Positions 18,237 to 31,697 of a stretch of DNA of 33,321 bases are shown one piece after another. Each line of letters opens with the position of its first letter. The first letter of the stretch is position 1. The translations under genes were made by a program, and so were the position numbers. The notes beneath the pieces were generated by a model. It had not been told where the DNA came from and searched no databases. It saw nothing but the letters and a program-made list of their open reading frames with translations. This stretch comes from an uncultured Bacillota bacterium (lineage in GTDB: Bacteria; Bacillota_I; Bacilli_A; RF39; UBA660): the NCBI GenBank assembly GCA_946540075.1, contig CAMNHZ010000003.1:1-33321 (forward strand), read 5' to 3'.

Positions 18237-18947
18237 ATGTTAAATTTTATAGTATGTGACGATAAAAAGAAGATTGTTGACGATGTAACTAAAACAATAA
18301 ATAAGGTTATGATTGGTAATAAATATGCATATAAAATACATAAGTTTTATGAATATGATAATGAATTTATGAAGATTGTAAATTCAAAAATGGCGGCAAA
18401 AATCTATATATTAGATATAGAGACTCCAAAAAAATCTGGTATTGATGTAGCGCGAAAAATAAGAACTAAAGATATTAATTCTACAATAATATTTCTTACT
18501 TCTCATCAAGAATTAGGTGAAGTGTTATTACAAGAAGAAGTGATGTTTTTATCATTTATAAACAAATTTAACAATAGTAAAACAAGATTAAAAAAAGCAA
18601 TTCAAAAAAGTATTCAATTTGCAGGAAAAAGGAACGCTATAAGGTTTCAATGTCACGGCGCAGTATTTACTATTCCGACTTCAGATATTCTTTATATAAC
18701 GCGAGATAGTGTAGAAAGAAAATGTATTATTAAAACTGACTACACTGAGTTTAAACTGATAAAACCATTAAGTGAAATGATTGAATTGCTAGGACCAGAT
18801 TTTGCTTATTCACATCGAGCTTGTATTGTTAATCTTAAAAGAATTCATTTGATAGATAAACACCATAGAATTATCGTGTTTGATAATGGCAACAAACTTG
18901 ATTTAGTTAGTTCAAAATATGTTAAGGAGATGATTAGCAGTAAATGA
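18237..18947 (+). CDS. agrA: AgrA-like LytTR response regulator
   Basis: Receiver domain (CDDKKK, YILDIETPKKSG) plus LytTR domain (DILYITRD...YSHRACIVNLKRI...VSSKYVKEM). Confidence 0.9.
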   Translation: MLNFIVCDDKKKIVDDVTKTINKVMIGNKYAYKIHKFYEYDNEFMKIVNSKMAAKIYILDIETPKKSGIDVARKIRTKDINSTIIFLTSHQELGEVLLQEEVMFLSFINKFNNSKTRLKKAIQKSIQFAGKRNAIRFQCHGAVFTIPTSDILYITRDSVERKCIIKTDYTEFKLIKPLSEMIELLGPDFAYSHRACIVNLKRIHLIDKHHRIIVFDNGNKLDLVSSKYVKEMISSK

Positions 18948-20263
18948 AAATATGTGAAGTATTTATTGGTTCATTAATTACAGTTATAGCTCAATTATAT
19001 ATATGGTTTAGATTATCTAATAAGAAGATAGGTGATTTGTCTAGTAAAGTATATCTTTTCTTAGTACTACTTGCAATAGTGATGACGATTAATTATCTTT
19101 ATATAAATAAGTTTTTTCGTATAATAATTATTGTAGGTTGTATGATTTTGTTTGTATATAAAGTATTAAAAAGGCCAATAAAGAATTCTATAATTATGGT
19201 TTTATATAGTGAATTACTAGCAGTTATTAGTGAAGTTATATTTATATCAGCTATATCATATATAGGTAATTATGATATCAATTCTTTAGAAAAATATTCC
19301 TTTGGTAAGTTATTAACTAATGTTGTTATTGCAGTTCTGTCAATTATTATTTTTAACATTGTAGATAAAATTAAATTTTTACAAGATAAAGTTAGTATTA
19401 TAAGTAATTACCCAAAAAGAAAATTGATACTTATATCAATATTATATATATTTATTGTTAACTTTTTCATTATGCAGTCATATTATAAAATAACTTTGGG
19501 TTTTCTATTGATTCTGAATGCATTTAATATCGTTATTTTTACATTTATTATTATACAAATAATGAATGAGTATTCAAATAATGTCGCAATAAAGAACAAG
19601 TATGATATTTTAATGAGTAAATCAATTGATTACGAAAATATAATAGACAGTCAAAGAATGGAAAACCATGAAAACAAAAATGACTTATATGTTTTAAAGA
19701 CAATGATTCCATCTAGCAATAAGGAAGCACATGAACAATTAGATTTAATGATTAATGAATATGAAAATAGAGAAATTGAATATCAACAAAATAAAGATTT
19801 ATATCAAAAAACGCTAAGAATACCATCTGGTGGTCTTAGGGGACTTTTTTATCAGAAATTATTGTATATTGAGAATAATAATATTGAGTATTCTCTTAGA
19901 GTTAGTAAAAATATAAATAAAGATAGTTTAAATGATTTAGATAAGTATGAACGCAGAAATTTATGTAAAATAATAGGAGTATACTTAGATAATGCTATTC
20001 AAGAAGTAGAAAAAATAGATAATAAAAAAATTAGAATTGATTTAAAACTAGATAAAAAGGTGTTTCAAATTAGTATATCTAATAGCTTAGGTAAAATTCT
20101 TGAAATTGAAAAAATAAATGACAAGGGATATAGTACTAAAGGTAAAAAACACGGATATGGTCTTTCTTTAGTTAATGATATTTTAAAAGAAAGTAAAAAA
20201 ATTACTAGTGAAACAAGTATCACAGGTAGTATCTTTAAACAGACAGTAAAAATAAAAATATAG
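18944..20263 (+). CDS. agrC: AgrC-like peptide-sensing histidine kinase, GHKL ATPase
   Basis: About 6 N-terminal TM helices, MENHENKNDLYVLKTM H-box region, GVYLDNAIQEVEK N-box, KKHGYGLSLVNDIL; overlaps the regulator ORF by 4 bp. Confidence 0.88.
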   Translation: MKICEVFIGSLITVIAQLYIWFRLSNKKIGDLSSKVYLFLVLLAIVMTINYLYINKFFRIIIIVGCMILFVYKVLKRPIKNSIIMVLYSELLAVISEVIFISAISYIGNYDINSLEKYSFGKLLTNVVIAVLSIIIFNIVDKIKFLQDKVSIISNYPKRKLILISILYIFIVNFFIMQSYYKITLGFLLILNAFNIVIFTFIIIQIMNEYSNNVAIKNKYDILMSKSIDYENIIDSQRMENHENKNDLYVLKTMIPSSNKEAHEQLDLMINEYENREIEYQQNKDLYQKTLRIPSGGLRGLFYQKLLYIENNNIEYSLRVSKNINKDSLNDLDKYERRNLCKIIGVYLDNAIQEVEKIDNKKIRIDLKLDKKVFQISISNSLGKILEIEKINDKGYSTKGKKHGYGLSLVNDILKESKKITSETSITGSIFKQTVKIKI

Positions 20264-20286
20264 TTTAAAAAACTATATTTTTATTT
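20250..20286. terminator. Bidirectional terminator between convergent agrC and agrD
   Basis: Perfect 16-bp inverted repeat AAATAAAAATATAGTT-TAAAA-AACTATATTTTTATTT containing both stop codons. Confidence 0.75.
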
Positions 20287-20403
20287 AATTAAAGATTTTG
20301 GTGTTTCTGGTTCATCAGCGACAACAATTACGCAAGCGCTTGAACCAAGAGTAGCTACGAAAGCTCCAACCTTTGCTAAAATAGTTGATAAAACAGCAAC
20401 CAT
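20281..20403 (-). CDS. agrD: AgrD-like cyclic autoinducing peptide precursor (40 aa), absent from the ORF track
   Basis: Reverse-strand translation MVAVLSTILAKVGAFVATLGSSACVIVVADEPETPKSLIK; C-terminal SAC....DEPETPKSL matches AgrD recognition tails; SD AAAGGAAGG upstream; directly follows agrB. Confidence 0.93.
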   Translation of the reverse strand: MVAVLSTILAKVGAFVATLGSSACVIVVADEPETPKSLIK

Positions 20404-20448
20404 CTATTCTTCGCCTTCCTTTCTTTTTATATACCTTACTTTATAAAA

Positions 20449-21057
20449 TCAAATACCATTACTTTGATAATTTTTATAATTATCATATGGTAATTTAAAT
20501 GCTTTATAGACATATGGTGAAATCATAAAGCATTGTACTACTAAAGCAAACATAAATGCATTTGCTAAGAACATGTCATTGATAAAAATTGATGAAAAAG
20601 ACATAATAATGGCCATTAAAGTTGATATCAATTTAAATCTTTCTCGTCTAGTTTTACTAATGATTGGTCTTTTATACGTATCAGCAGGAGCATTTTTATA
20701 TACTCTTAAGATACATATTGAGCAAATCACAGCTCTTTGAATGCAGGATATCTCCACATGTTTACATATTAGAGGGACTCCAATAAAAATAATTGTTGAA
20801 GCAATCCAACACATCCAGCTTTTAGTAGCATGTAATCCAAAAGAGGGTGTCCTTATTATGTTGTAAATTAATAAGAAGATCACCACTTCCTTAAAAATAT
20901 GCAGAAAGATCGATACTACAAATATAAATACTAATTTAGTTAATAAAATATATATAGATTCTAACCCATATCTAATAATAGATAGTTTTTCTTGATCATA
21001 TTCTTTGTTTGAATTGGATATTAACTTTATACAACCATCTAAAACTAAATTTTTCAT
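20449..21057 (-). CDS. agrB: AgrB-like propeptide-processing membrane endopeptidase
   Basis: YNIIRTPSFGLHATKSWMCWIAS with the conserved His and Cys; NAPADTYKRPI; several TM helices; ATG at 21057 (track uses TTG at 21063). Confidence 0.93.
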   Translation of the reverse strand: MKNLVLDGCIKLISNSNKEYDQEKLSIIRYGLESIYILLTKLVFIFVVSIFLHIFKEVVIFLLIYNIIRTPSFGLHATKSWMCWIASTIIFIGVPLICKHVEISCIQRAVICSICILRVYKNAPADTYKRPIISKTRRERFKLISTLMAIIMSFSSIFINDMFLANAFMFALVVQCFMISPYVYKAFKLPYDNYKNYQSNGI

Positions 21058-21099
21058 ATTCAAATACCACTCTACTTTCTACACTTTACTGATTTTATC

Positions 21100-21153
21100 A
21101 CTATAAAGAATTATTTTAGATTTTATGTCTTAAAAAACACGAAAAATATGTCT
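21100..21153 (-). promoter_or_regulatory. Putative agrBD promoter with a LytTR-type direct repeat
   Basis: On the minus strand AGACATA (21153-21147) and AGACATA (21130-21124), 23 bp start to start; TATAGT -10-like at 21105-21100. Confidence 0.4.
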
Positions 21154-21388
21154 AAAAGAGTTTTTTATAACTTAATTTAATTGTAATTTTACATTTTAAA
21201 CAATTTTATGAATACTTTGAGCAAATAAATAAAAAAATATCAAATAAAAGGGTAAAATCGTAGTTACCTTGCTTTATAGGAATCGCTAATTTGTAGTATT
21301 TTGTCGACTCTTTTTTCTTGTAATAACAAGAAAATAAAATTAAAATAAAATTGTAAGGCAGTAAATTACTAGGAGGGAGATTTATATG

Positions 21389-22316: not shown

Positions 22317-22562
22317 ATGATTAAATTACAAAATATTAGATCATATTTATTAGATGAACAATTTAAAATAACAATAATTAATAATAATGTTGATATAGTT
22401 AATTTTACATCAATAGGTCATTTTGATGATACTAAAATTATTGTTAGATATAATAATGGAAGTGTCGTCGTTAAAGGAGAAAAACTAGTAGTTAAAAAGT
22501 TGCTAATTGATGAAATATTAATTGGTGGAAAAATAAAAAGTATTGAGTTGATTAATATATGA
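22317..22562 (+). CDS. yqfC: YqfC family sporulation-associated protein
   Basis: 81-aa YqfC-like pattern (VNFTSIGHFDDTKIIVRYNNGSVVVKGEKLVVKKLLIDEILIGGKIKSIE) directly upstream of yqfD. Confidence 0.75.
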   Translation: MIKLQNIRSYLLDEQFKITIINNNVDIVNFTSIGHFDDTKIIVRYNNGSVVVKGEKLVVKKLLIDEILIGGKIKSIELINI

Positions 22563-23722
22563 AATCTAAATTAAAACTTAAGGTTGTTGGAAAGAATCCC
22601 AACTTATTTTTTAGAAGATTGATTAGTAATGGTATTAATATATATAATCTAAGTCAAATAGATTATAAAACTATTGAAATAGTTATTTTAGAAGAAGATT
22701 ATGAAAAGCTAATGAAGATTAGATCTGTATACGATGTAACTATATTAAATAGTTATGGTATCAGAAAAGTAAGAGAATTAATCAGAAAAAATAAAATTTT
22801 AATGATAAGCTTAATTATAAGTATCTTATTAGTATATATGCTATCAAATATTATTTTTAAAATTGAAATAGTACATAATGATAGTAACATAAGACAATTG
22901 CTTTCTAAAGAATTAGAAAGTAACGGTATAAAGAAATACTCTATAAAAAAAGATTATCATAGTATTCAAAGAATAAAGAATGGTATTTTAAATAAATATA
23001 AAGATAAACTGGAATGGATTGAAATAGAAAATATTGGGACAAAATATGTTGTTAGAGTTGAAGAAAGAAAAATAAATAAGAAACGTAAGGAATCAGCTAT
23101 AAGAAATATAGTAGCTAAAAAGAGTGCGACGATAAGAAGGATATATACTAAAAAGGGAGAGGCTATAAAAGGAATTAATGACTATGTAAACAAGGGAGAT
23201 GTAGTCATAAGCGGGGAGATAAAATTAAATGATGAATCTAAAAATATGGTATCTGCTTCTGGGACAGTATATGGAGAAGTGTGGTATAAAGTAAAGGTCG
23301 ATATGCCTCTTGAATACCATGAAAAAAAATATACTGGAAGGAGTAAGAAAGTATATGCAATTAATTTTTTAAATTATAGTTTTGAATTGTTTAATTTTAA
23401 TAAGTTTAAAGATAAAGAAAAAAAATCAAAAGTTATATTAAAAGATATGATTTTGCCAATAAGTATTGAAAAACAATATCAAAAAGAAATAATTAGAATA
23501 GATAAAAAATATAAAGAAGAACAAGCAATTACAGCTGCAACTAATTATGCATTAGATAAAGTAAGACATGATTTGAAAGAAAAAGAGTATATAATTGGTA
23601 AAAAAGATTTGAAAGTTGCGCTAAAAGATAGTAAAATAGAAGTGAATGTATTTGTAGCTGTATGTGAAAACATAACTCAGTATCAAAGTATATCTGTAAA
23701 TGATGATTTAAAAAAGGAGTGA
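22559..23722 (+). CDS. yqfD: YqfD family sporulation protein
   Basis: Single TM then IGTKYVVRVEERKINKKRK, NIVAKKSATIRRIYTKKGEAIKGINDYVNKGDVVISGEI; overlaps yqfC by 4 bp. Confidence 0.88.
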   Translation: MKSKLKLKVVGKNPNLFFRRLISNGINIYNLSQIDYKTIEIVILEEDYEKLMKIRSVYDVTILNSYGIRKVRELIRKNKILMISLIISILLVYMLSNIIFKIEIVHNDSNIRQLLSKELESNGIKKYSIKKDYHSIQRIKNGILNKYKDKLEWIEIENIGTKYVVRVEERKINKKRKESAIRNIVAKKSATIRRIYTKKGEAIKGINDYVNKGDVVISGEIKLNDESKNMVSASGTVYGEVWYKVKVDMPLEYHEKKYTGRSKKVYAINFLNYSFELFNFNKFKDKEKKSKVILKDMILPISIEKQYQKEIIRIDKKYKEEQAITAATNYALDKVRHDLKEKEYIIGKKDLKVALKDSKIEVNVFVAVCENITQYQSISVNDDLKKE

Positions 23723-25629: not shown

Positions 25630-25706
25630 GCGCTTGTAGCTCAGCTGGATAGAGTGTTTGGCTACGAACCAAAAGGTCAGGGGTTCGAATCCCTTCAGGC
25701 GCGCCA
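25630..25706 (+). tRNA. tRNA-Arg (anticodon ACG)
   Basis: GCGCTTG/CAGGCGC acceptor, TTTGG-CTACGAA-CCAAA anticodon arm, GGTTCGAATCC T-arm, encoded CCA. Confidence 0.95.
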
Positions 25707-31432: not shown

Positions 31433-31472
31433 TTAATTAGTATTAATATGTTAAAATAATTAAAATAAAAAC

Positions 31473-31680
31473 AAGGAAGTGGACGAGTAATATAAGAAAC
31501 AGTTAATAGAAAGCCAGAATGATGGAAGCTGGTAATATGTCTTATATGAATAACACCATGGAGTTGTAAGTCAGAAGTAGTAGTATGATTTACCGGTTAA
31601 AACCGTTATCTAAATTAAGTAAGTTATTTTAAGGGTGGTACCGTATGATTAACATGCCCCTTATAATAACTTTTTTTGTT
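31473..31680 (+). ncRNA. T-box riboswitch/leader of asnS
   Basis: T-box core AGGGTGGTACCG (31632-31643), specifier-like GAA-T-AAC-ACC with Asn codon AAC (31552-31554), terminator CCCCTTATAATAACTTTTTTT. Confidence 0.93.
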
Positions 31681-31697
31681 TATTGGGAGGAGAAAAT

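Follow-up and report, generated by a model that had tools for sequence, protein, structure and literature searches.

The 33,321-nucleotide stretch of DNA analysed here (the window), which derives from an uncultured Bacillota bacterium, carries a locus that, judging from its sequence, is best explained as a full quorum-sensing system of the Agr type in an uncultured bacterium of the Bacilli, and this system very probably makes a six-residue C-V-I-V-V-A thiolactone as its signal (AIP). Gene identity, synteny and catalytic residues are read directly in the locus, while the six-residue register comes from comparison with relatives.

The precursor gene is an unannotated minus-strand frame at 20281-20403, encoding 40 amino acids plus the stop codon, which a sequence-only reading had proposed to be agrD. 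The translation matches the peptide quoted there exactly, and the frame is, as far as sequence comparison can tell, an intact agrD, i.e. the precursor of a cell-to-cell signal peptide. It is single-copy in the host genome, starts with ATG and is preceded by a good ribosome-binding site 10 nt 5′ of it (AAGGAAGG; 20414-20421, minus strand). All parts of an AgrD are present: a hydrophobic/amphipathic N-terminal leader (M1-A23; 20335-20403), a Cys core, in which the six-residue macrocycle C24-V-I-V-V-A29 is predicted (20317-20334), and an acidic, Pro-containing recognition tail (D30EPETPKSLIK40; 20284-20316), all on the minus strand. The profile search that had been suggested as a check bears out the assignment: the product scores 30.3 bits (E 3.3e-7) against the NCBIfam AgrD model TIGR04223, above its cut-off of 19 bits. 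Against Pfam's AgrD model, a staphylococcal one, it reaches 16.1 bits, below the gathering score of 22.7. Cognate AgrB, AgrC and AgrA are found at the locus. A frame of merely 40 codons in an AT-rich genome might be a chance or decayed one without a product, yet a peptide that lies above a curated TIGR04223 cut-off, follows a good ribosome-binding site and has syntenic homologues in more than 100 genomes, with nucleophile and tail fixed, leaves this explanation a vanishingly small probability.

Directly upstream of agrD, and on the same strand, lies agrB (20449-21063, with a likely ATG start at 21057), encoding a membrane cysteine peptidase (PF04647, E 1.3e-32) in which the catalytic His and Cys are present. 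Its R69, G74, H76 and C83 correspond, by motif and spacing, to R70, G75, H77 and C84 of Staphylococcus aureus AgrB, which are required for cleavage (PMC10196373). The agrBD pair converges on the plus-strand genes agrA (18237-18947), encoding a response regulator with a LytTR DNA-binding domain (PF04397, 1.6e-12; PF00072, 4.6e-8), and agrC (18944-20263), encoding a GHKL sensor kinase with about seven hydrophobic segments (PF14501, 1.5e-12), so that an AgrC-type sensor and a LytTR AgrA adjoin agrBD. H242, N350, G404 and G406 of AgrC are invariant among 87 aligned sequences; the NCBIfam AgrC and AgrA equivalogs are matched below their cut-offs only, as expected outside staphylococci. A perfect inverted repeat of 17 bp, its loop 3 nt long (20250-20286; RNA fold z = -4.1), is situated between the stop codons of agrC and agrD and is probably a terminator for both directions.

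The same arrangement recurs in the host's family, where the AgrD model finds matches in 105 of 295 genomes; these organisms are represented by metagenome assemblies. The family AgrD set comprises 142 peptides, 110 collected first and 32 then held out, from genomes not used before. AgrB adjoins AgrD in 108 of the 110 family loci, and in 89 (about 90) of the 110 the order agrB-agrD followed by a convergent agrC is seen within the short stretch retrieved. His76 and Cys83 of AgrB are kept in 108/108 of these loci, Gly74 in 100% and Arg69 in 97%; such family counts are not to be taken as probabilities, since related sequences are not independent. The AgrD search at the order level added no match outside the host's family, and that of a phylum-level sample returned nothing beyond the loci already found. 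One class-level match (L131, in G443) looks like a false positive, being inside a longer membrane protein.

The best reading of the window AIP is a thiolactone of C24-VIVV-A29, a ring predicted, above all from comparison with relatives, to be almost certainly of six residues. S. aureus AgrB cuts at M32|D33, directly before the tail DE, with D33 and E34 indispensable (PMC10196373). The sequence-only reading had registered the peptide on its tail, and rightly so: D30-E31-P32-E33-T34-P35-K36-S37-L38 aligns position for position with D33 to L41 of S. aureus, which leaves C24 plus five residues before DE. As the register of DEPETPKSL with the staphylococcal DEVEVPKEL is exact, the cut should fall at A29|D30 and the ring should span C24 to A29. 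The window peptide thus lies outside the canonical five-residue AIP subgroup, its nucleophile being six residues before the tail.

Family-wide comparison leads to the same register. When residues are numbered backwards from the tail, position -6 holds Cys in 92, Ser in 7, Thr in 6 and another residue in 5 of the first 110 peptides, and Cys in 25 and Thr in 7 of the 32 held out. One of the latter Thr peptides (L176), with a clostridial-type tail, no AgrB detected nearby and Ser/Thr readable at other distances, was left out of the six-type count. Overall, C, S or T stands at exactly -6 in 135 of the 142 family AgrDs (six-type), with 132 distinct cores. A usable Cys is missing from 14 six-type peptides (no Cys whatever, or a lone, unsuitably placed one), and all of these have Ser or Thr at -6; elsewhere in the 110 peptides Ser/Thr is found in 7 at -5 and in about 3 at -7. 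In the 110 peptides, hydrophobic residues of varying identity fill positions -5 to -1, and in the six-type peptides a hypervariable core, at 2.7-3.4 bits per site, stands between a fixed nucleophile and a fixed tail, the latter with D/E as residue 1 in 134, E as residue 2 in 135 and P as residue 6 in 129 of the 135. That the mature signal is instead a canonical five-residue C24-V-I-V-V28, with AgrB cutting at V28|A29 and A29 belonging to the tail, is improbable. Rings in Staphylococcus, Listeria and most clostridia usually have five residues (PMC12312760), and in 13 of 13 AgrDs that the same model picked out in other families of the class the nucleophile stands five residues before the tail; however, the D-E-x-x-x-P-x-x-L motif is in exact register with D33-L41 of S. 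aureus, whose AgrB cuts right in front of D33, residue -1 is hydrophobic and varies as much as the core, unlike the conserved tail residues, and the Ser/Thr replacements follow position -6. The 13 out-group peptides also demonstrate that the AgrD model does not force a count of six.

The choice between five and six, which the earlier reading had left open, is largely resolved in favour of six by the family-wide comparison, and the rarity that it implied for such a ring was overstated: six is the rule in the host's family and is known in the Clostridium acetobutylicum group. That reading's description of the core as entirely aliphatic is correct for CVIVVA, which is not special in this respect, 8 of the 135 six-type family cores consisting of A/V/I/L/M throughout. 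Some flexibility of the frame exists, as Cys is at -7 in two sister AgrDs (L031 in G023 and L057 in G275), for which seven-residue rings are possible, and at -5, with Thr at -6, in G020 and G162.

In the AgrB tree, Cys appears to have been replaced by Thr about four or five times and by Ser about six times, and one group of eight AgrBs (support 97) pairs with seven Thr-type peptides and one Cys-type; the three systems with five-residue rings and tails of the clostridial type are placed outside the six-type clade, their branches being long and their exact position unsure. Seven AgrDs with Thr at the ring-closing position and an intact AgrB adjacent were noted (L167, L170, L171, L172, L174, L177 and L060, the last in G221). 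AgrBs adjoining Thr-type AgrDs retain the catalytic His and Cys, and four Thr-type AgrDs scanned singly all exceeded the AgrD cut-off, one barely (19.4 versus 19). The simplest prediction for such precursors is a threonine-closed lactone; no published Thr ring nucleophile was found in the open-access papers searched. On balance, we lean towards the view that the host's family has a separate six-residue AgrB/AgrD clade, in which Cys gave way, on several occasions and always at one position, to Ser or Thr as the nucleophile, and of which one lineage would make Thr-closed lactones.

For the window system we infer the chemistry, cut sites, leader removal, export, sensing, autoregulation and target genes, most likely along the following lines. 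AgrB, through H76 and C83, would cleave AgrD at A29|D30, keep the core as an acyl-enzyme and then pass it to the C24 thiol, giving the six-residue C-V-I-V-V-A thiolactone with the leader still attached. A further protease, for which the host genome's single CPBP-family peptidase is the probable candidate, would remove the leader; AgrC would sense the exported peptide and phosphorylate AgrA, which probably activates agrBD via LytTR-type direct repeats 5′ of agrB. The thiolactone could also be an intermediate, if leader removal leaves an N-terminal Cys, and undergo an S-to-N acyl shift to an all-amide cyclic hexapeptide as the lasting signal, a sequel compatible with the preferred explanation up to the final step. 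Such a rearrangement is on record for the tail-less AIPs of Listeria and Ruminiclostridium (PMC11297923), and the active synthetic peptide of C. acetobutylicum is named R6T0 (PMC10301443), taken here to mean a ring of 6 and a tail of 0; on the other hand, the conserved G-S-x-A-C stretch before the Cys could equally be an exocyclic tail, and the shift is rather unlikely.

As for regulation, a candidate AgrA (LytTR) operator lies upstream of agrB (21124-21157, minus strand), namely the direct repeat TTTTAGACATA / TTTAAGACATA, 23 bp apart, which is the sole such pair in the genome; by itself, the half-site TTTWAGACATA shows no enrichment in the window, only the spaced pair being unique in the genome. 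Among relatives, ATGTCTRAAA pairs at exactly 21 bp are found 5′ of agrB in 16 of 105 regions, with near none expected, and at other spacings in two or fewer each. A general direct-repeat scan of these regions gave a weak signal (16/105 at p ≤ 0.05), and only the 21-bp spacing preference is used as evidence because the motif came from the top hits of that scan. This preference supports the view that, in the host's family, AgrA acts through its LytTR domain to autoregulate agr; for the host genome itself, whose repeat has a 23-bp spacing and an orientation opposite to that of most relatives' 21-bp repeats, the candidate operator is suggestive only. Genome-wide, ATGTCTRAA pairs 21 bp apart are not in excess (11 versus 10 for the reversed pattern), and a wider AgrA regulon is not proposed on these counts.

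Among known systems, agrBDCA of S. aureus is alike in the AgrB catalytic residues, the DE...P..L tail register and the AgrC/AgrA pair with LytTR, and differs in its ring of five and its single operon, whereas the host's agrBD converges on agrAC. The agr group of C. acetobutylicum (CA_C0082 and homologues) resembles the host system in its predicted six-residue ring and in having agrBD and agrCA in separate operons (PMC10301443); unlike the host locus, it is accompanied by a LanM-like gene (PMC10301443), whereas a protein-family scan of the larger window ORFs between 17047 and 23722 found none. In Listeria and Clostridium perfringens the tail spacing of AgrD is the same, with YEP/HQP in place of DEP, and the ring has five residues. 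Ser for Cys, as in several host relatives, occurs in the AIP lactone of the Staphylococcus intermedius group and in GBAP of Enterococcus faecalis, the latter with a ring of nine.

The window peptide is not a new kind of signal, since six-residue AIPs have already been described around C. acetobutylicum: they are predicted in that species and its relatives, with the synthetic peptide R6T0 active (PMC10301443), and are noted for clostridia in a review (PMC12312760). The family-wide six-residue AgrB/AgrD clade, the convergent agrBD/agrCA order and the Thr lineage appear to be undescribed in the searchable literature. The size of the ring is regarded as critical for Agr signalling, and in S. aureus an altered one is not tolerated for activation (PMC10482373); a family where six prevails, more than 130 different cores being set in a constant frame with C, S or T at one place, offers natural tests of how AgrB measures the ring and chooses the nucleophile, and is also a source of many candidate signals from uncultured organisms. 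In some genomes agrD is present in two or three copies that differ in their cores (L053 in G053, and L069, L051 in G029), close together in L053 and L069, and several signals per processing enzyme are possible there. One genome (G078) combines a five-residue, clostridial-type Ser AgrD with a six-residue, family-type one (L003 and L044).

Elsewhere in the window, a T-box leader (Rfam RF00230, 105 bits; 31465-31664, plus strand) lies 5′ of the ORF at 31683, two tRNA genes are found at 25630 and 27774, and a YqfD-family (stage IV sporulation) protein is encoded at 22559-23722 (plus strand), in a genome whose assembly is only 0.83 Mb.
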